Shown here: piece after piece, positions 19,576 to 45,861 of the stretch | Numbering within the stretch: the stretch's first letter is position 1 | Layout of the letters: the number at the start of each line of letters is the position of its first letter | Notes under the pieces: model-generated | What the model was told of the DNA's origin: nothing | The model's database searches: none | What the model saw: the letters and a program-made list of their open reading frames with translations, nothing else | Made by a program: the position numbers and the translations under genes | Source: a virus | DNA: 51,867 nucleotides | Virus record (IMG/VR): IMGVR_UViG_3300010148_000016 | Span: 1 to 51,867 of that record | Direction: 5' to 3' (one strand)

Positions 19576-19896
19576 TTATTTCTTTTTACTCATTATTTCA
19601 TTTAATGCTTTTTCATCTTGATCTGACATTATAGCATCCCATTTACCACTTGGACATGAAGAAGATAATGCTCTTGTTTTAAAAGCAAGACTACATCCAC
19701 AATTTGCACAACAAGGTTGAGTACCTGAAGCAGCACAGTGACTACCTTTTATATCTAGATAATCACATTCTTTACATATGCTATATCTATCTCCTGCAAT
19801 AATTTCTACATAGTCTTTTTTCCAAATATTATTTTTAACACCTTCATATACTTGATCTAAATGTTTTATTGCTCCTAATAATTTACCTAGTTTCAT
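19576..19896 (-). CDS. Cys-rich putative zinc-binding protein (106 aa)
   Basis: A central segment carries eight closely spaced Cys: ICKECDYLDIKGSHCAASG followed by PCCANCGCSLAFKTR and SSCPSGKW. The pattern CxxC..C....CCxxCxC...C suggests two zinc sites or a zinc ribbon. The ends are helical and charged. Proteins of this type stand next to HU/IHF-like genes in related phage cassettes, as far as I remember. It overlaps the HU/IHF-like gene by 14 nt. A structural or DNA-binding role is likely, but the function is unknown. Confidence 0.75.
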   Translation of the reverse strand: MKLGKLLGAIKHLDQVYEGVKNNIWKKDYVEIIAGDRYSICKECDYLDIKGSHCAASGTQPCCANCGCSLAFKTRALSSSCPSGKWDAIMSDQDEKALNEIMSKKK

Positions 19897-20257
19897 TTTT
19901 CCAATTTTTTTTATTATCTATTTCTATATTTATACGGTCTAATGTTTTTTCCATTTTAATAAGTTTTTCTTTTACTGGTAAATGTTTACCATATCCAGAA
20001 TATGTAGTTTTTTCCATATTACCTAACATATCTTTATGTCTTTTTATAGATCTTTCTAATCTATTTTTTCTTATTATAAAAGTACCTAAATTTGGTAAAA
20101 GAACTCTAGTATTATTTAATTCTTCTAGTTCATGTCTTACTTTGTTATAAAAGAATCTAACAAATTCCTCTACCAAATTTTCATGTACTTCACATTCTTT
20201 TGCAATATCCTTATAAAATGTTTTATAAGTTTTAGGTTTTATGTTATTCTTCAACAC
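19883..20257 (-). CDS. HU/IHF-like DNA-binding protein (124 aa), non-ATG start
   Basis: The middle of the protein (VEEFVRFFYNKVRHELEELN then NTRVLLPNLGTFIIRKNRLE) matches the HU/IHF fold: two helices followed by the beta start LPNLGTFxxR that precedes the DNA-embracing arms. It is expected to bend DNA for packaging, genome condensation or regulation. No ATG is available near the N-terminus: the frame opens with GTG at 20257 immediately followed by TTG, both overlapping the end of the upstream gene. Translation is therefore probably coupled to that gene. The arms appear short and the C-terminus is basic, unlike canonical 90-residue HU. Confidence 0.8.
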   Translation of the reverse strand: MLKNNIKPKTYKTFYKDIAKECEVHENLVEEFVRFFYNKVRHELEELNNTRVLLPNLGTFIIRKNRLERSIKRHKDMLGNMEKTTYSGYGKHLPVKEKLIKMEKTLDRINIEIDNKKNWKNETR

Positions 20258-22612: not shown

Positions 22613-25600
22613 TTATTGGTTCCTTAATATTGATCTAAATTGTGATTGTGTAGGTCCTTTATAAAATGGATGTGGTTTAAATAATGGTAATTGTCCAATA
22701 CTTGGTCCTATAATATTATCATAGGATTTATTAAATTGTGGGTTTATACCTGTAAATGTTCTTAAATTAGGATTATTACCAACAGTATTAAACATTCCTA
22801 TATTTTCATTATATTTTAAATTAGGATATTTATTAAGTAATCCACTAGCAGTTGTTGGAACTATATTTCCACTTCCAAATACTTTTGCAGCATTAGGTAA
22901 TGTTTTATAACCTCTTAGTAAACTACTAGGTACTCCAGTTAACTCAAATGTTCCAAATGCAGTATTTGCTAAACCTGAAGTAATATCACCTTCTTGAAAA
23001 TTACTAATTGCATTAGGAAATGTATTTACTGCAGCATTAGTACCCCATCCTACATTAGCTAAATCTCCAAATGTTAAAGATCTGCCTGTAACAGGATTAA
23101 TAGAACTACCTCTAACTGTTGTTGATGGTACACTTCCTCTTGTACCTTTAATTACATTTTTTATTCTGCCTGGTATATTTTTTACTACATTTAAAGGTGT
23201 AGACATAACTGTATTATAACCTTTAAAAGGTAAAACTGTACTAGCTGCAATTTCTATTGGTGACCATGCATTAATTGGATTATAATTATAATCTTCTACA
23301 GCTCTTTCATATCCACCTGCACCTTGAAAAGCTGGTGCAGTTGAATATAACCACATCATATTAGGTGCTATACCTTTTTTCATCCGTTCTTCATGTTGTT
23401 TATATGCTTCTGTATATTCTGCAGCCCGTTGTCTTTCTCCAATAGTTCTATTATCTTGACTTATAAATGTTTGATTTGAACGATTATTATTTAGTTTTTG
23501 TATATCATTAAAATTAACTTGATTTGTAACTACTCTTGTATTATCTGGCGGAAGAGTATTAAGATTATTTATATAAGGATTATTTAAATTATTATTATTA
23601 AAATCAATATTAATATTTTCATAATTATAATCTTTATCAAAATCAAATCCTTCTGGTACATATGGTAAATTTTGATCATAACCTGAAACCATTGAATTAA
23701 TTCCGTCTTGAACAGATTTATTATAATTTATATATGCTCTTTCTTTTGATCCTTCTGGAAATTGTTCATTAATATATTTTAATAAGTCTCCTCTATTTTG
23801 AAATATATTACTATTTTCTTGAGTTCCATCATATTTTTTTATTTCTTCATCTAAAAATTGCATTACTTCTGTAAATTGAGGAGTAGCTACTTCTTCATAT
23901 GAATATGGATGATATGGTTTACCTTTATATGTAAACTCAAAATTATTTGCATCTTTATTTGTAAGATTAGAACGAAGATATGGATTTTGTGTATTTTGTG
24001 CTGCAGTTAAATTATCTCTAGTTTGACCATAATAATCACCAAAACTCATATTAGCAAATTGTGGAAATAAAAGATTAGCAGATTCTATATCACCATCTTT
24101 TAAATATCCTTGATACCTATTAAAATCATCCATTTTAACAAAATTCTCATAACCACCGTAAGGTTCATATAATCTTTTTTGTCTTTCTAATGCTAATGCT
24201 ATTTCACCAAAGCTTGGCGTTTCAGAGTTATACATTTGTGCTTTTGGTAATGAACCTCCATACTTAACACTCATTGGATCACCAATATCATCACCTATTT
24301 CATAATTTTGTGCTACAGTATTATTAATATCTATAATATCTTGATCATTAAAAAACTGAAACATTCTTTCAGTTGGTAAATTAGGATTAGGATTATTTTT
24401 AATGTATTGTTTATATTGTTCAAGTATTTCAGGAGTTAAAACATCTGTACCATAATTAAATCCTATAGTTTTATACATATCATATCTTAAAGCTTCTAAA
24501 TCTGCTTTTCTTTCATATACAGATTTATCATGAGAATTTGCATCATCAGAAACATTCATTTTACTTTGTATATAATTATAATCAGCATCATTTAAATTAA
24601 AATCTTTAATATACTTACTTGAACCCATTTGATGACCAAGCTCATGGGCTAATGTTGCTTCTAATTGTGATTTTAATTCAGCAGGAGTTCCTTCAAAACC
24701 CATATCTATATTTAAACCTTGAATTTGTCTTGGATCTAATACAACATCTCCTTGTCTTGATCCTGATGTATAAGCTCTACTGCCTGTTTCACCTCTCATT
24801 AATTTATTTCTAAGCTCTCTAAATGCTGGAACATCTAGGTGACCATATTGTGATTGTATTATAGCTTGAAATTGATCATCAGTAAATATATTTGGTTCAG
24901 CTTCATTTCTTATTTTTCTGCTGTCATAATTTAGATCTGCTTCTGTTCTTTCTTCACCTATTCTTGTATAATAAGGATTTGCAAAAAATACATCTTTATA
25001 ATTATAATCTATACCTGAATCTTTATACTGATCATTTAAAAAAGTTACTTTATCAAGAATTTTTTTAATTAAATTAGGATCATCATCATAAGCCTCATCT
25101 CTGTAAGAATTAGAATCTGCATCATACATTACTTTAGAATTAGCTAAAGCATCTTTTCTCATGTCTATAATTTCATCAACATTCTCATAACCTTGATTAA
25201 TTAATTTTTGTTTATATAAATCTCCACTTATAGCATTATCATAAAAATCTTTTTGTAATTGTACATCTTCCTTTTTAATTGGATTCATTATTGATTTATA
25301 TTGCTCTTGAAACTGTGCTTCTTGTGCTGGACTTTGAAGTTGAGGCCAATATATATCTCCTTGTTGTAATCTGTTTTTATATTCTTTTTTAGAAATGCCT
25401 TCCATTCCAGGCATATTTTTAATGTATTTGTACTGTTTTACCAAATCTTTATATGTCATATTTGATGTACGTACAAACTCTTGACTATCTTTATCCCATG
25501 TGTATCCTGTCGTTGTTTTACCATCAGTAAAAATCTCTGGTTTTAATTCTCTATACCAACTTGTATTATTTGGATCAGCAGCTAATGTACTAGAAAATGC

Positions 25601-28600
25601 CCCATCATCTAGAATTTCTGAATATGGAACATCTGTTGTAGTAAGATACCTAGCATCACCTAGCGCAGTTTCATATTCTGGATTTAAAATGTAACTACCA
25701 TCATCTTGTTTGGTATACATTTTTTGATATAATCCATGAAGAAATCTTTTTTTATTTTCTTTTTCTAAAGTTTCTTTATTCCACAATAGAGGATGAACCA
25801 TATCACCTTCATTATTTATATATGGATTATTAGCAAAGGTTATTTTTTCATCATCACTTAAAGCATTATAAGCATCTGAATCTTCAAACCCTTGTTCAAA
25901 CCATTGTGGATTATAAACACCTGTTCTAGTTTCTACATTACCATCTTTATTTTTATAATCAAATGTAAACTCTCCTTCTGGCACATTAAGAAATTCTGAT
26001 GGTATATATTTATATGTTTCAGCCAGATTAACTTCTGTACCTGGTTGAGCTTTAAAAAGTTCACCCCCATCTTTAAAACCACCAAATGGATTTGTACCAA
26101 TCATAGTATTATCTGCTGGAATTACAGTTTGATTTTGTAATTCTTGAATCATTTTTAAATTAGCTTCTTGTCTTTTTAATTCTTCTTCATTTATATTATT
26201 TATCCATGGTTGTAAATACATATTTAAATATCCTTCATTTCTAGCTAATGGTGAACCACCTTTTTCATCATTTCTAATATATTCTGCTAATGCTTTATCA
26301 ATATTATTAGTCATAATAGCATCAGCAAATTTTGGATATTTACTTAATTTACCAAGATTATATGTATAATCTGCAAGCATAAATTTAGTTCTAGCAGGTA
26401 AATTATCATATGCAGTTTCTCCATAATTAGCATCAATAAAAATTTTAGTTTTTCTTAATGCGTTATCTATATCTTCTTTTCTAAATAATTCAGCATCTTC
26501 TAATGATAATCCTGATTTATATGTATCAAAAATATCTGCTCCTTTTCTACCAAAACCTATTGTAGCTTCTGATTCATATGTACCATTTGAATTTTGATGA
26601 TAATATGGGTAAAACTTACCATCTTCATATACTTTATAATATGTTTTGCCATCAGGTTTTAATACTGCTGAATCTTTATTTTTTACATAATCCCAACTTG
26701 TTTCTTCTTCTTGTATAAAGTTTTCAAATTGTTCATATTCATCTTTAAAAGTAACTTCTGCATTTCCTTTTTGAGCTTTTTTTATAGTAAATGTTTGACC
26801 ACCTGTTTTATATTTTATATCATCAGGTGTATCATCTAAAGCATAACCTTCAGTTTGTCCACCATACTCTTTAAATGGATTATAAGATTTACGTTGTAAA
26901 TCAAATATAGTACCACTATAATTATCTAAATCATATGTATTACCTGTATTTATTAATTGTGGATTTTTTTGTAAGTTGCTATAATAACCTAATGTACCTT
27001 TTTGACTTTTTGTTAAACCATCCATAGCATTCCATCCTTGTATATTACTTATACTTGTAGCATTTGGTATTACAATTTTATTAAATCCTGAATTTTGTAA
27101 AAAGTTTAATGTTTCATTTTCAAATCTGTAATATGGTTTAGACCCTATTCTAGACATTGGAATTAAACTCTCTAAATTAAGATCAGAATTATCCATAATT
27201 CTTCTAGATGTTGGGTAAAGATTTTCACCAGTTTGAGCTAGTCTTGCTAATTCTTGTTGTTGTATATCTAAAGCATTATATTCATCAGCAAATTCATCTA
27301 GTCCAAATATTTCATTTTTTCTTTGTTGAATATTATTTATTTTATTATTTATATCATTTAAATTGCTAAAATATTTATCATTTCTTTTTTCAACTTGAGG
27401 TTTTATTTTTAATAATTCAGAACGATTTTTATTACTTAAAAAATCAAACATAGGATCTTTATTTATATCTGTCTGTAATTCTTTAAGTATAAATAACCCT
27501 GGGTTTTCAGCATCTACAAATCCTCTTACCCATCCCATAGCTAATGGATCTAATATATGTAATCCATCATGATGACTATCTAAATATGGTTTTTTTAATA
27601 AATTTGGCATAGAAACAGAATAATTTGTAGGTGTAATTCTAGTTCCTTTAAATTCTGTAAAGCCTCCTGGTAAGTAACTAAATTGTGAAGGTAAAAGATC
27701 TGGGTATCTATATAATCCAAAATCTGCTCCATCAGAACTTTCCATACCGGTCCATTTAGATCTAAAACCTTGTGTACCATCTATCATACGAGCATCTAAA
27801 TTATTTAATAGAGGTTGAAATGCATGATTTGTTACTGCTAAATCTGAAAAACTTTGTTCTTTTAGTTTAGATAAATCTATTTGGTTATTAGATATAAGGC
27901 TAGGATTATTTTTTAATGTGTTTTCAATAAACATTGCCTCACCTTTATTAAAATTCTTTAATAAAAATTTATCAAACTGCTTAACAGGTAAAAAAGGTTT
28001 TTTAGTAATCATATTATTAAAACCACTAAAAAAGTTATCTGCCAACCTTGTAACAATTTTACCTTTTTGTGCTTTTGCTAATGCTCCTCCTTCTTTTTTA
28101 TATAAACTTTCAAGTGGATCAAATAAAATTCCTTGCTCATCAAAATATTGACGTTTTTTAAATGGATCTAATAAATTAAATTCTTCTCTTGTTAGATTAC
28201 GTTCAAGAAGAGGCATGTTAGGATCTTCTACAAATGCTTTATAATCCCAGTCACTAAGTTCAAACTCACGTCCAAGGTAATCACTTATAAAACTTTTACG
28301 TGGCATACTACCATCTGTTTTTCTTCTATAAGTTTGAATTCTTGGAAATTTCATAAAAGTTCCTTCAAAAGGAGTATTTAGACTAAATTTTTCTGTTAGA
28401 AGTGGTGCTATTTGAGCATTTATATCAAGTACATTCTTTCCACGACCTGGAGTACTTATTCCTGCTATATTTTTTCTTATTGTATTACCTCCAGATGTAT
28501 TTGCAAATCCTTCATCACCTGATAAAATTAATGATGGACTATTGGTACGACCTAATAAAAAATTATGTTGATTAGCCATTTCACCACGTCCTCTAAAAGT

Positions 28601-30829
28601 AGCTAAATTTGTAATTGGATCAACATTCATTAAACCAGCATTTACAACATAATCAGCTACAGGAGTATTTATATCTATATATTGGTATGAAGGTTCTTGT
28701 ACATAACTTACATTTTCTCCATAAGGTTTAGTCTTAAAGCTAAAATTGTTAAATCTATTTTTAGGATTGCTAGTTAATCTTTGAAATGAAGTAGCACCTT
28801 GTAATGGAACACCGCTAGCATAAAATCCATATTTACCATATGACCTTAGATTTTTTTCAAACTCATTAGTAAAATTATCTCTAAGTTTGGTAGCATGTCT
28901 ATTATCCCAATCTATTTCTTGATTTCCAATTACAGGATTCCTTGCATTAAAAATAGGAATTCTAGGATCAGCAAATATCTCATTCATAAAAGAAGAAGGT
29001 TTTCCTTTTGTAAGTAACTCTATATAAAACTTAGGATTTATTTCTTTTAAGTCTACAGCCATGTTAGCTGCATCTATAGCAAAATTTTTATCAACATTAA
29101 ATTGTGAATAATTTTTTGCAAGATCAGCAAAATTACCTACAGGTTGAAAATCAGGTTGATTTATATTTGATATTACAGCCTTTTCATAATCTGTAAGATT
29201 TCCAAAATCAATTCCTTTTAAGTTTAGCTCATTAACTCCTATAAGTTGAGGATTAAAATCAAAAGTTTGATTTATTCCTCTAAGATCTAAATTAGGATTA
29301 TTAGTTCTAATTAATTTAAGTAAATCCGGTCTAATTTTTTTAGGTGTATATTTAAGAGCATTTATACCGTATTTTAATAAACCTGCTTTACCCCCTGGTT
29401 GAAGTTTAGGTAAAGATCCCCCGTACTTACTACCATCATCTGTTAAAGCATCATATGTATCTTTAAGTCCTGAATAAAGAGCTACTAACGAATTACTTTT
29501 TTTAAGTCTATCTAAATTCTGTTGATTTTTACTATATATAACGCCTTGATTTTGGTTTGAAGCAACAGATTGATTTATTAAATCTTGCCTTTGTTGAGCT
29601 GCATAATCAGCATCTGATATAATTTCTACTGGAGGTGCAGTTTGATTACTATATCCAGAAAATGTATCTGATGCATTTGGTGTAATACCATAATCTATAT
29701 CACCTCCATAATTTTTATTAGCTATTGCACCTGATCCATCATAAGTATCATATCCGTATAGTGCTCCGTAATTAACATCTGGTCTCTCAGATCCAGTACC
29801 AAAAAATCTATCTATAAATGTATCTCCAAAATTTGTTTGATAACCTGACCATTGATTACCACTAGCAACATTTACTTTCATATTAGTTTCATCAGCTAAT
29901 CTTTGACCAGCATCACTTTTTTTGCATACACCCATATAACATGTTATACCAGAAGCATCATCAAAAGTTTCATTAATTACTTCAGCAAATGTATCTGTAA
30001 GACCAGGTGTTTGATCATAACCAAAATGTTTTCTTTCTTGTTCACCATACATTATTGGTCCAACTTTACTTGTACCATGTTGCATTATAATAATATCACC
30101 AGTAGGGCTTAAGTTTTTTATATCTTGAAAATATTTATTTGTTGCATCAACAGGACTTATATATTGTTGTTCTTGTTCTTCTAGTTCTGCTAGTTTTATT
30201 TCATTTAATATATAGTTTAAATGATCTTTGCTTTCAAATAATGCGTCATCTAATAATTTAAATTCTCCTTTATTAACGTTATAGAAATGGTCTTGATCCG
30301 AATATGTTAATGGTGATAATGTTTTCATTAACTCCTCTTCTTCTTTTCCTAATCTTCTTAGTTTATTTTGTAATTCAATAATTTCTTTAGATTCTGGATC
30401 ATAGTCAGCTTCATTATAACCCTCTAAACCTTCTTTTCTTTTATATAAATCTAGCTCTAAGTCACCAAATTGTTTTCGTATCTCTTCTCTTTTTTTTCTT
30501 GTTTGTTTTAAATACGAATTTGCTTCATTTTCATCAGCAATAGTTTGATAAGTATCACTAAGAGCTACATTAGGTAATGGTCTTGCAATCCAATTACCAA
30601 CTCCATATCTCTCGTTTAACTCAGGAGTCATTCTTTCTAGGTCACTTGAAAAGTAACCTTCTGGATCTCTAGGATCATAATAAATTACTGCTTGATATTG
30701 CGGTTTACCACCAGGAACACCTCTGCTAGAAGTATAAGCTACATCTGGATTTAACATAAATGTTCCATCTTCTACTTCACCAACATAACCCTTTTGCGCT
30801 TTTGCTAATTTTTTGAGTTTTCTCGCCAT
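22613..30829 (-). CDS. Giant multidomain virion polyprotein with GGxLxKAQxG-spaced modules (2738 aa)
   Basis: The largest gene in the window. A motif of the form (Y)GGxLxKAQxG or KAQKG recurs at about residues 8-14, 469-479, 914-923, 1343-1355, 1588-1597 and 2190-2198, dividing the protein into modules of 245-600 residues. Module 1 has a clan CD-like pair: IIIMQHGTSK (H251) and ITCYMGVCKKSDAG (C302). Module 3 has VRGFVDAENPGLFILKELQT, like the EiQSD segment of phage polyvalent proteins. Module 4 resembles T4 lysozyme (ESEATIGFGRK). Module 5 carries a zinc metalloprotease HELGH (2062-2066). The last module is Asn-rich with hydrophobic stretches. It is probably an internal, ejected protein set; processing at the motifs is a hypothesis. 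Confidence 0.8.
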   Translation of the reverse strand: MARKLKKLAKAQKGYVGEVEDGTFMLNPDVAYTSSRGVPGGKPQYQAVIYYDPRDPEGYFSSDLERMTPELNERYGVGNWIARPLPNVALSDTYQTIADENEANSYLKQTRKKREEIRKQFGDLELDLYKRKEGLEGYNEADYDPESKEIIELQNKLRRLGKEEEELMKTLSPLTYSDQDHFYNVNKGEFKLLDDALFESKDHLNYILNEIKLAELEEQEQQYISPVDATNKYFQDIKNLSPTGDIIIMQHGTSKVGPIMYGEQERKHFGYDQTPGLTDTFAEVINETFDDASGITCYMGVCKKSDAGQRLADETNMKVNVASGNQWSGYQTNFGDTFIDRFFGTGSERPDVNYGALYGYDTYDGSGAIANKNYGGDIDYGITPNASDTFSGYSNQTAPPVEIISDADYAAQQRQDLINQSVASNQNQGVIYSKNQQNLDRLKKSNSLVALYSGLKDTYDALTDDGSKYGGSLPKLQPGGKAGLLKYGINALKYTPKKIRPDLLKLIRTNNPNLDLRGINQTFDFNPQLIGVNELNLKGIDFGNLTDYEKAVISNINQPDFQPVGNFADLAKNYSQFNVDKNFAIDAANMAVDLKEINPKFYIELLTKGKPSSFMNEIFADPRIPIFNARNPVIGNQEIDWDNRHATKLRDNFTNEFEKNLRSYGKYGFYASGVPLQGATSFQRLTSNPKNRFNNFSFKTKPYGENVSYVQEPSYQYIDINTPVADYVVNAGLMNVDPITNLATFRGRGEMANQHNFLLGRTNSPSLILSGDEGFANTSGGNTIRKNIAGISTPGRGKNVLDINAQIAPLLTEKFSLNTPFEGTFMKFPRIQTYRRKTDGSMPRKSFISDYLGREFELSDWDYKAFVEDPNMPLLERNLTREEFNLLDPFKKRQYFDEQGILFDPLESLYKKEGGALAKAQKGKIVTRLADNFFSGFNNMITKKPFLPVKQFDKFLLKNFNKGEAMFIENTLKNNPSLISNNQIDLSKLKEQSFSDLAVTNHAFQPLLNNLDARMIDGTQGFRSKWTGMESSDGADFGLYRYPDLLPSQFSYLPGGFTEFKGTRITPTNYSVSMPNLLKKPYLDSHHDGLHILDPLAMGWVRGFVDAENPGLFILKELQTDINKDPMFDFLSNKNRSELLKIKPQVEKRNDKYFSNLNDINNKINNIQQRKNEIFGLDEFADEYNALDIQQQELARLAQTGENLYPTSRRIMDNSDLNLESLIPMSRIGSKPYYRFENETLNFLQNSGFNKIVIPNATSISNIQGWNAMDGLTKSQKGTLGYYSNLQKNPQLINTGNTYDLDNYSGTIFDLQRKSYNPFKEYGGQTEGYALDDTPDDIKYKTGGQTFTIKKAQKGNAEVTFKDEYEQFENFIQEEETSWDYVKNKDSAVLKPDGKTYYKVYEDGKFYPYYHQNSNGTYESEATIGFGRKGADIFDTYKSGLSLEDAELFRKEDIDNALRKTKIFIDANYGETAYDNLPARTKFMLADYTYNLGKLSKYPKFADAIMTNNIDKALAEYIRNDEKGGSPLARNEGYLNMYLQPWINNINEEELKRQEANLKMIQELQNQTVIPADNTMIGTNPFGGFKDGGELFKAQPGTEVNLAETYKYIPSEFLNVPEGEFTFDYKNKDGNVETRTGVYNPQWFEQGFEDSDAYNALSDDEKITFANNPYINNEGDMVHPLLWNKETLEKENKKRFLHGLYQKMYTKQDDGSYILNPEYETALGDARYLTTTDVPYSEILDDGAFSSTLAADPNNTSWYRELKPEIFTDGKTTTGYTWDKDSQEFVRTSNMTYKDLVKQYKYIKNMPGMEGISKKEYKNRLQQGDIYWPQLQSPAQEAQFQEQYKSIMNPIKKEDVQLQKDFYDNAISGDLYKQKLINQGYENVDEIIDMRKDALANSKVMYDADSNSYRDEAYDDDPNLIKKILDKVTFLNDQYKDSGIDYNYKDVFFANPYYTRIGEERTEADLNYDSRKIRNEAEPNIFTDDQFQAIIQSQYGHLDVPAFRELRNKLMRGETGSRAYTSGSRQGDVVLDPRQIQGLNIDMGFEGTPAELKSQLEATLAHELGHQMGSSKYIKDFNLNDADYNYIQSKMNVSDDANSHDKSVYERKADLEALRYDMYKTIGFNYGTDVLTPEILEQYKQYIKNNPNPNLPTERMFQFFNDQDIIDINNTVAQNYEIGDDIGDPMSVKYGGSLPKAQMYNSETPSFGEIALALERQKRLYEPYGGYENFVKMDDFNRYQGYLKDGDIESANLLFPQFANMSFGDYYGQTRDNLTAAQNTQNPYLRSNLTNKDANNFEFTYKGKPYHPYSYEEVATPQFTEVMQFLDEEIKKYDGTQENSNIFQNRGDLLKYINEQFPEGSKERAYINYNKSVQDGINSMVSGYDQNLPYVPEGFDFDKDYNYENINIDFNNNNLNNPYINNLNTLPPDNTRVVTNQVNFNDIQKLNNNRSNQTFISQDNRTIGERQRAAEYTEAYKQHEERMKKGIAPNMMWLYSTAPAFQGAGGYERAVEDYNYNPINAWSPIEIAASTVLPFKGYNTVMSTPLNVVKNIPGRIKNVIKGTRGSVPSTTVRGSSINPVTGRSLTFGDLANVGWGTNAAVNTFPNAISNFQEGDITSGLANTAFGTFELTGVPSSLLRGYKTLPNAAKVFGSGNIVPTTASGLLNKYPNLKYNENIGMFNTVGNNPNLRTFTGINPQFNKSYDNIIGPSIGQLPLFKPHPFYKGPTQSQFRSILRNQ

Positions 30830-44389: not shown

Positions 44390-44696
44390 ACCTGAGTTCA
44401 CTTTAGAAGTGTATGATAAACTTATAGAAATGATGAGATCCTCCAACCCGGAGGATTTTTTTATGGGTGTAGAAATATATAAGCATCATGATAAGTCACA
44501 CATAATAGATATGCTAATGATAAAATCATTTGGCGGATCTAAAAGAGCAGACTTTATTGAAGCTATAGGTTTTGACACAATAAAATATAATAGATATATT
44601 ATGCTTGATGATTTAAAAAAAACTATTGATGAGTATATGTTAGAAACAGAATGTAAAATATTTAAAAGATTAGAAGATGAATACAACAGTTATTAA
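44382..44696 (+). CDS. Unknown small protein containing a terminator-like hairpin (104 aa)
   Basis: The product MSKPEFTLEVYDKLIEMMRS is helical and acidic at the start, with MIKSFGGSKRADFIEAIGFD in the middle. No known motif is visible. Its DNA contains a perfect stem and U tract at 44438-44462. It overlaps the RusA gene by 8 nt and the VWA gene by 20 nt, so it may pass translation from the replication genes to the VWA-MoxR pair. Confidence 0.65.
   Translation: MSKPEFTLEVYDKLIEMMRSSNPEDFFMGVEIYKHHDKSHIIDMLMIKSFGGSKRADFIEAIGFDTIKYNRYIMLDDLKKTIDEYMLETECKIFKRLEDEYNSY
44438..44462 (+). terminator. Terminator-like hairpin inside the 104-aa coding region
   Basis: ATCCTCC, loop AACCC, GGAGGAT form a perfect 7-bp stem followed directly by seven T. 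It lies inside a coding sequence (residues RSSNPEDFF) and just before an in-frame ATG at 44463. When ribosomes do not cover it, it could stop transcription and so attenuate the downstream VWA-MoxR genes. Confidence 0.55.
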
Positions 44697-45861
44697 TTTA
44701 CAAAAAGTAGTAGATAAAGTATCCAAGGCTTGTAAGACCCTTATGTTTAAAGAACCATTTTATGGTTTATTACTTATAGGTATGAACAAAAAGTACAGAG
44801 ATGATTTACCTACTGCTGGTGTTAGTAAGCTTGGCATGGGTGTACAACTAGCAATCAATCCTAAATTCTTTGATGGTCTTACAGAAATGCAACAAATAGG
44901 TTTGATGAAACATGAAATACTTCATGTAGGATTTGGTCACTTAATAACAAGAGATTCATATGCTGATCATAAACTATTTAATATTGCTGCAGATCTTGAG
45001 ATCAATCAATATATTGAAAGTAATATGTTACCTGAAGGTGGTTTAACACTAGATATGTTTCCTGAATTAAAATTAGATCTTAAAGCAGGTACAAAATATT
45101 ACTATGATAAATTGCAACAAGCTAAAGATGATGGATCATGTCCAACACTAGACAATTTATTAAATGAAATGAATGGAGCTAGTCAATATTGTCACTCTAC
45201 TTGGGATGAGTTTGATGAGTTATCAGAAGCTGATAAGAAGCTAGTACAAAAACAAATTGAACATCAACTCAAAGAAACTGCAGATCTAACAGAGAAAAGA
45301 CAAGGTCATGTACCCGGTGAGTTCTCTGAAATCATAAGAAGACTTAGAACAATTGAACCTCCTTCATTTAACTGGAAGGCATATCTAAGAAGATTTGTTG
45401 GTAATTCTAGTATAGTATATACAAAGAAGCTGAGACGTAAGTACAATAAAAGATACAGCGGTAACCCTGGTCTTAAAATTAAACACAAGAATCATATCTG
45501 TGTTGGTGTTGACACAAGCGGATCTGTATCTAATTCAGAATTACAAGAGTTCATGAGTGAGCTTACACATATGCACAAGACTGGTCATCAGATTACTGTA
45601 GTACAGTGTGATACACAGATCAATAGTGTAGAAGTATTTAATCCTAAAAAAGATTGGGATATAAAAGGTAGAGGAGGCACAAGCTTCCAACCTGTAATAG
45701 ATCATTACAATGAAAAAGGGCATTATACTGCTCTAATATATTTAACAGATGGTGAAGCTTATACTCCGGATAACTGTCCAAAGAATTCTCTTTGGGTACA
45801 CAGTTCTCGTTGTGAGATAAATGAAGAGTTACCAGGACTAAAAATTCAAATTAATAAATAA
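44677..45861 (+). CDS. VWA protein with N-terminal metallopeptidase-like HExxH domain (394 aa)
   Basis: The N-terminal domain has LMKHEILHVGFGHLI (HEILH at 79-83, H88), followed by NIAADLEINQYI, as in the DUF2201 putative metallopeptidase family. The C-terminal VWA domain has a MIDAS: VGVDTSGSVSNSE (DTSGS at 279-283), GGTSFQ (Thr 335) and LTDGE (Asp 358). The two domains occur together in proteins that pair with MoxR-type AAA+ ATPases, and the next gene is such an ATPase. The pair probably remodels or activates a target protein. Whether the HExxH site is catalytic is unknown. Confidence 0.88.
   Translation: MNTTVINLQKVVDKVSKACKTLMFKEPFYGLLLIGMNKKYRDDLPTAGVSKLGMGVQLAINPKFFDGLTEMQQIGLMKHEILHVGFGHLITRDSYADHKLFNIAADLEINQYIESNMLPEGGLTLDMFPELKLDLKAGTKYYYDKLQQAKDDGSCPTLDNLLNEMNGASQYCHSTWDEFDELSEADKKLVQKQIEHQLKETADLTEKRQGHVPGEFSEIIRRLRTIEPPSFNWKAYLRRFVGNSSIVYTKKLRRKYNKRYSGNPGLKIKHKNHICVGVDTSGSVSNSELQEFMSELTHMHKTGHQITVVQCDTQINSVEVFNPKKDWDIKGRGGTSFQPVIDHYNEKGHYTALIYLTDGEAYTPDNCPKNSLWVHSSRCEINEELPGLKIQINK

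Follow-up and report, generated by a model that had tools for sequence, protein, structure and literature searches.

What is the product of a phage gene that stays open over 2738 codons and is punctuated by six related short peptides, and what is the role of these peptides? The choice and loading of proteins ejected ahead of phage DNA are poorly understood beyond a few models, and most crassvirus cargo has escaped resolution by cryo-EM. A sequence-only reading of the 51.9-kb viral contig that carries the gene (the window, meaning the whole stretch of DNA analysed) had proposed an answer, namely a polyprotein of enzyme-like modules, ejected with the DNA and cut into at least six proteins. The open reading frame that it described is confirmed, and lies on the minus strand, on which that reading was silent; this is also the strand of the structural genes, with PhoH, endolysin, terminase and portal genes located downstream and the genes in the window's other half divergent. 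Two other genes were noted in the window, one for a DUF2201_N putative metallopeptidase and VWA-like protein among the plus-strand genes (44677–45861), and one for an HU-like DNA-binding protein on the minus strand (19883–20257), flanked by endolysin and exonuclease genes. The window virus is a phage of the crAss-like superclade, possessing all three of a crAss-like portal (phrog_6547, E 7.6e-96), terminase (phrog_6681, E 1.8e-64) and major capsid protein (phrog_11589, E 1.1e-27); among named phages, the portals closest to its own are those of Leptolyngbya phage Lbo-JY46 (32.5%) and Cellulophaga phage phi17:2 (26.0%), followed by those of gut crAss-like phages. Near-identical copies of the reading frame occur in full on two IMG/VR contigs and in part on a third, and further genome sequence came from a 114-kb contig (G002, also L002) whose virus is almost identical. 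The protein as a whole gave no tblastn match at E 1e-3 among 50,697 phage records, and nothing above cut-off with Pfam, PHROGs or NCBIfam. Its parts are listed in Table 1.

Table 1. Motif copies and modules of the 2738-residue protein, with their positions in the window.
Feature	Residues	Position	Strand	Basis or remark
Proposed motif-jointed cargo polyprotein, 2738 aa		22613..30829	-	open reading frame
Motif copy 1, N-terminal header LAKAQKG	8–14	30788..30808	-	without GG
Module 1	15–467	29429..30787	-	alignment of three homologues
MQHG and CYMGxC blocks of module 1	249–302	29924..30085	-	invariant in three homologues
Motif copy 2, KYGGSLPKLQPG	468–479	29393..29428	-	PSSM score 35.7 in the G002 copy
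Module 2	480–913	28091..29392	-	homologues in G046, L160, L161, L169; no family match
Motif copy 3, GGALAKAQKG	914–923	28061..28090	-	score 32.2 in the G002 copy
Module 3	924–1342	26804..28060	-	homologues in G046 (95.7%, the best conserved module there) and in L160, L161, L169 (48–50%)
Motif copy 4, GGQTFTIKKAQKG	1343–1355	26765..26803	-	longer spacing; missed by the PSSM at score 6.6; reads KQYQNG in G046
Module 4, T4-lysozyme/pesticin-like	1356–1587	26069..26764	-	Pesticin match sub-threshold; homologues at 60–82% identity
Motif copy 5, GGELFKAQPG	1588–1597	26039..26068	-	left edge of the module-5 indel
Module 5, HExxH metallopeptidase-like	1598–2188	24266..26038	-	HELGH at residue 2062 (24632..24646); no match in G046, L160, L161, L169 or L170
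Motif copy 6, KYGGSLPKAQ	2189–2198	24236..24265	-	no final G; right edge of the module-5 indel
Module 6	2199–2738	22616..24235	-	G046 homologue at 73% identity; only short partial matches in L160, L161, L169

The six KAQ-type motifs stand where they had been placed, at residues 8, 470, 914, 1343, 1588 and 2191, but the pattern given for them, GGxLxKAQxG, fits strictly in two of the six, the others being loose variants (copy 2, for example, reads GGSLPKLQPG from residue 470, with KLQ instead of KAQ, and copy 6 reads GGSLPKAQMY from residue 2191). A loose expression, GG.{1,8}K[AL]Q, was counted six times, corresponding to five distinct places with one counted twice, as against a mean of 0.057 in composition shuffles of the protein, none of which reached six in 5000 trials. 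Residues flanking the motif are hardly more linker-like in composition than the average (60.1% against 57.2% upstream, with no difference downstream), and module 1 and modules 3–4 could be modelled only poorly, with mean pLDDT values of 44.1 and 41.8, respectively. The notion that the modules are repeats of one another was rejected, no such relation being recognisable in the 15 pairwise hhalign comparisons (modules 4 and 6 came closest, at E 0.006).

Beyond the window, YGGxLPKAQxG is a signature of large proteins in one crAss-like phage clade. Searching the viral contig collection with a DNA pattern that encodes YGGx(L/F)PKAQxG returned 43 stretches on 42 contigs, in 42 of which the L-form motif lies in frame within an open reading frame of 249 to 2688 aa (some of these lengths being fragments that end at the edge of a stretch), and the 43rd (L046, record G035) reads SFPKAQDG in a 1270-aa frame. 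A further pattern matched 29 stretches, of which 15 had not come up with the first, and all of these 15 lie within open reading frames; the first, strict pattern gave none in 84,980 bacterial and archaeal genomes. The core LxKAQxG occurs 85 times in 43 records, 42 of which had been pre-selected for one motif copy, compared with no occurrence of the reversed pattern. The phrog_6547 portal is present in 35 of the 43 motif records; of the eight without it, two are shorter than 12 kb and six measure 43–107 kb, one of these six (G005) starting inside the capsid gene. One record of 245,646 bases (G038, IMGVR_UViG_3300030098_004828) holds two full portal genes, and is either two joined genomes or an unusual phage. 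Scanning 16 long contigs with an iterated score matrix, for which they had also been the training set, gave 54 sites at a score of at least 11, against one in the reversed proteins (score 20.6). From the 41 sites scoring at least 17, with weaker ones excluded, the informative columns are [KR]YGGxLPKAQxG, among which Q carries most information (4.27 bits, 39 of 41), the remaining counts being 40 for the first G, 37 for the last G, 36 each for A and L, 35 each for K and P, 33 for the second G, 30 for [KR] and 25 for Y. Conservation is restricted to the motif itself, the column directly before [KR] holding 1.1 bits and the other flanking columns displayed less than 0.8 bit. Codon choice within the motif is close to the genome background, except for K (AAA in 31 of 32) and L (TTA in 24 of 31); because the codons mostly follow genome usage, the constraint acts on the peptide, not on the DNA, and a conserved DNA-level recombination site was set aside.

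When the 83 motif proteins were reduced to 57 non-redundant ones, with 79 sites among them, comparison placed breaks of homology at the motif. With flanks of 300 residues, 17 pairs showed homology to both sides of the motif, 43 only upstream of it and 60 only downstream, counts which are non-independent, the contigs being related, and which include sites with short flanks. With flanks of 150 residues, those below 100 being dropped, the share of one-sided homology was 0.88 at the motif and 0.32–0.74 at eight shifted controls (0.33, 0.32, 0.64 and 0.74 for shifts of −260, −200, −120 and −80, and 0.65, 0.71, 0.61 and 0.50 for +80, +120, +200 and +260), where shifts of less than 150 keep the border within a flank. 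Whole modules come and go at the same points. Between flanks that are 97.3% and 98.3% identical to those of G017, L032 carries an extra module of 716 codons with the motif at both borders and a motif-coding direct repeat at each edge. Module by module, G046 is 73–96% identical to the window protein and is without module 5, its joint GGFKDGGQLAKAQMYNSE combining the left part of copy 5 with the right part of copy 6; since the more distant L160, L161 and L169 likewise have no module 5 between modules 4 and 6, it was more likely gained in the lineage of the window virus than lost several times. In G046 the polyprotein seems to be split, but the break coincides with a run of unknown bases (X residues) and may be an artefact of assembly; it was not counted as fission. 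In L160 and L169 module 1 is missing and the header (LPKAQ) joins module 2 directly, in L170 module 1 is placed after an internal YGGSLSKAQDG, and in L160 and L161 an additional motif-bounded module stands between modules 2 and 3. The extra module of L160 (residues 522–776) shows by eye a kinase-like loop, HLDMHSNNIMV, with an NCBIfam UbiB match at E 0.06 and no Pfam match. The proposal that the motif heads or bounds modules is thus borne out by the homology breaks, by module gain and loss, and by the direct joining of the N-terminal copy to module 2 in two relatives, and the motif is almost certainly a joint at which modules are exchanged as cassettes.

Such exchange could in principle account for the motif by itself, as a tolerated linker or recombination seam spread in frame between motif-coding repeats and having no role in binding or cleavage, and the module indels do end in motif-coding direct repeats. 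A neutral seam is nevertheless disfavoured because it would preserve DNA, not peptide, whereas the residues are kept across strongly diverged genomes with synonymous codons mostly varying as they do genome-wide. Moreover, only one strong copy is present in 39 of the 57 motif proteins, and N-terminal copies exist, so that a mere seam appears improbable.

The description of the modules as enzyme-like holds in part. It is favoured by the lysozyme-type match of module 4 (Pesticin, E 0.0065, below the Pfam cut-off) and by the HELGH sequence and the homologues of module 5, but the Pfam matches of both are sub-threshold; matches to polyvalent domains in the window protein are also sub-threshold only. 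Module 5 is homologous to the module preceding a motif in G017 and L032, and its L032 homologue matches phi17:2 gp042 (E 6e-6) and phi4:1 gp041 (E 3e-6), the latter annotated as structural from MS/MS. The two invariant blocks of module 1, MQHG and CYMGxC, we take to recall caspase-like (clan CD) cysteine peptidases, of which module 1 is possibly one. Module 3 has no tblastn match in plasmids. Family scans covered 40 of the 57 motif proteins (the other 17 being split, short, near-duplicate or omitted, and the window protein being scanned separately), and Pfam recognised LysM in five, YkuD in three, SLT in two, and ART-PolyVal, PG_binding_1 and DUF5872 in one each, in addition to three plant-type LysM models. 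Among the 25 of 27 PHROGs families listed, transglycosylase and endolysin families each occur in at most five of the 40, and an internal virion protein with an endolysin domain in one.

The location of the motif genes points to the virion. Fifteen relatives were mapped for orthologues of G002 proteins, the cargo block being defined as the interval between the p2806 homologue (muzzle position) and p1141/p5149 (C2 and vRNAP positions). All 15 have at least one motif gene scoring 17 or more inside this block, which in G007, G010 and G027 extends past the contig ends; strong copies outside it were found in G007 (88565–88912, 115 aa, score 30) and in G035 (57944, 197 aa, score 25). In phi-crAss001 the equivalent block encodes the cargo proteins gp45 and gp46, according to the available part of the structural report (PMC10172136), and in phi4:1 all six proteins of the block (gp038–gp043) are annotated as structural from MS/MS. 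Across 16 contigs no copy scoring at least 11 was found in the major capsid protein, portal, scaffold-like p432, muzzle or vRNAP rows, and the C2-position proteins have a single one, at 11.4. Because the proteins at the vRNAP and C2 positions are without a strong copy, the motif is not a universal cargo signal.

The cargo-block genes of the window virus itself encode short proteins of 513, 987 and 1111 aa that are nearly motif-free, a lone site of score 21 lying in the longest, and the motifs are concentrated in the separate 2738-aa gene outside the block. Because of this arrangement the virion location of the protein, and with it the earlier claim of ejection with the DNA, is one that we infer from the cargo-block location in relatives and from the phi4:1 homologues annotated as virion proteins from MS/MS. 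The position of the gene outside the block and upstream of the PhoH and endolysin genes would also suit a multienzyme that acts late inside the cell or in lysis, has borrowed the joint and is no virion protein. This appears highly unlikely, given a strand common to the structural genes, the concentration of the motif elsewhere in cargo-block genes, and the encoding of HExxH-module homologues in such genes. The motif proteins, that of the window included, are probably virion cargo.

The proposed search for the motif at the N-termini of stand-alone proteins was also successful, small examples of 92–128 aa being found with a looser expression in the related phages G007, G030 and G035; the G007 protein mentioned above is the strongest of them. 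N-terminal placement is mildly enriched, with 16 of 61 matches in the first 60 residues, which make up 18% of the sequence, against a background of five matches overall in reversed proteins, and some KYQ-type matches may be due to chance. The 2738-residue protein and those of L160 and L169 share a basic N-terminal header ending in KAQ, and several C1-position proteins have a conserved N-terminal domain followed by the motif or by MAxYG. The proteins encoded at 70619–73678 in G030 and 89985–93797 in G035 share an N-terminus of about 35–40 residues, LKIAGVxxExEFYxxY, which leads into the motif and may be a targeting segment; a C1-position protein of G030 gave no tblastn match in phages. The Lbo-JY46 protein XAI97384.1 (PP438436.1 77867–79321; L013 32868–34322, minus strand) begins MKIRIIGLPKAQIGM, and makes the header testable in a phage with a named host.

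Known systems resemble these proteins in part. The Cellulophaga phage phi4:1 and phi17:2 proteins (phi4:1 gp040 and gp041) are encoded in the same gene block as the motif genes, phi17:2 gp042 combines a phage lysozyme (Pfam E 9.1e-32) with two HExxH sequences, and phi17:2 gp041 matches the p1111 group by hhalign (E 6e-5, probability 65), but the parts of phi17:2 scanned are without the full motif, VPNFQAGG being the nearest. Cargo protein 1 (C1) of phi-crAss001 (gp45, PF25725, PDB 7qog) has the same position in the cargo block, and its cryo-EM map, in the available part of the report, has two assigned segments, 214–245 and 425–552, on the tail barrel and portal (PMC10172136), both adjoined by a motif-like element (YGGPL at 208 and FGGWL at 426). 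Five [YFEK]GGx[LIVW] elements are present in C1, a count reached in none of 5000 shuffles, the pattern having been picked after seeing the sequence. What C1 has in common with the motif is the YGGxL half; it is without the PKAQ half, and its Pfam matches include no enzymatic module. Membership of PF25725 or PF25712 was rejected, neither being above cut-off in the clade: PF25725 was above cut-off in 0 of 16 clade records (sub-threshold in G035, E 0.02), with phi-crAss001 detected as a positive control, and the p1111 group did not match gp45 significantly (hhalign E 0.045, probability 1.2). Nor did phi-crAss001 gp46 match the C2-position group (hhalign E 0.42), to which an 845-aa protein of Lbo-JY46 does correspond (E 5.7e-7). 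The 484-aa protein of the latter phage had no significant match to the p1111 group (E 0.039), so that its link rests on position and N-terminus.

Broadly, the 2738-residue protein falls into the class of polyvalent, probably injected proteins known from phages and conjugative elements, described in the available text of PMC5512222 as large and multidomain, often with metallopeptidase or ART domains, and thought to be packaged and injected. It has the several domains typical of the class in the form of six motif-bounded modules, two of them gained or lost independently. Unlike in polyvalent proteins, most modules here match no known domain, and the available part of that account mentions no recurring joint motif or linker. 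No account of the joint motif, or of cassette exchange at it, came up when motif-variant strings were searched in the open literature and the papers judged from their titles and the opening lines of their abstracts. The joint and the exchange at it thus appear to be new, whereas the protein class is already known.

The peptide itself may serve as a processing site or as a docking signal. In T4- and phiKZ-like phages, prohead proteases cut internal head proteins; similarly, the chain could enter the virion intact and then be severed at KAQ-x-G or close to it, with a phage or host protease freeing the effectors. The prominence of Q in the motif, a header at residue 8 that looks like a short propeptide, and modules acting as independent units all agree with cleavage, as do the peptidase-like appearance of modules 1 and 5 and the DUF2201 gene on the other side of the window. 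In the available parts of the sources, P1 DdrB is processed before packaging and polyvalent metallopeptidase domains are proposed to autoprocess (PMC5512222), and internal head proteins of the T4, phiKZ and SPN3US type are ejected proteins with N-terminal propeptides (PMC10052503). Unlike in those systems, no protease family was recognised here in the structural genes tested (not every gene was run against both libraries), and the capsid protein, portal and scaffold-like p432 have no strong copy of the motif, whereas SPN3US gp245 cuts the portal, and portal and capsid proteins of its relatives carry propeptides (PMC10052503, available part). Furthermore, L160 and L169 keep the motif without modules 1 and 5. 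The claim that the chain is cut into six proteins so far finds no support: no capsid protease was recognised in the tested structural genes, and capsid, portal and scaffold-like proteins have no strong copies. Invariant residues were also inspected in five clade-conserved structural proteins, of which only p337 is without an invariant H, S or C; this neither shows nor excludes a catalytic set, and since a protease is not excluded by it, our estimate for docking was slightly lowered and that for cleavage slightly raised. On balance cleavage is possible, if rather doubtful, and docking in place of cleavage comes close to an even call. Docking is favoured because the motif is concentrated in proteins at or beside the C1 position, several C1-position proteins having it, or MAxYG, after their conserved N-terminal domain; because two of the five [YFEK]GGx[LIVW] elements of phi-crAss001 C1 abut the tail-barrel and portal segments; and because no protease was recognised in the tested structural genes. 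Against docking, C1 has the YGGxL half in common with the motif and not PKAQ, its homology to the p1111 group is not significant, and proteins at the vRNAP position carry no strong copy.

The reading preferred here, to which we assign a probability of roughly 0.48, is that of virion ejection cargo in the form of a motif-jointed chain, each joint of which acts at the portal/tail axis as a peptide for docking or packaging. The product of the 2738-aa gene would be a virion cargo (ejection) protein with six largely independent modules in one chain, at least one presumably lysozyme-like and one HExxH-peptidase-like, joined by a short linear motif that has LPKAQxG as its core and, in most cases, [KR]YGG in front of it. 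Along the portal/tail axis a conserved partner in the virion would recognise the peptide as a tag for docking or packaging, so that any domain given the peptide could be loaded and ejected, and recombination at the joint would exchange modules. No virion proteomics of a motif-bearing phage was found in literature listings. As a tentative extension, the joint may be a portable delivery peptide in this clade, by which any domain that gains it is loaded into the virion and ejected; swapping of cassettes in frame at the joint would then build variable payloads of effectors, namely cell-wall enzymes, peptidases, ADP-ribosyltransferases and perhaps kinases.

A single short peptide marking cargo modules throughout a widespread clade predicts which uncharacterised proteins are cargo, shows where cargo proteins may be divided into testable domains, and can itself be tested as a packaging or cleavage signal. 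The natural gains and losses of modules show that the chain tolerates plug-and-play editing, and the swapping of whole modules at the joint suggests that the proteins which these phages carry into their hosts are assembled in the same plug-and-play manner.
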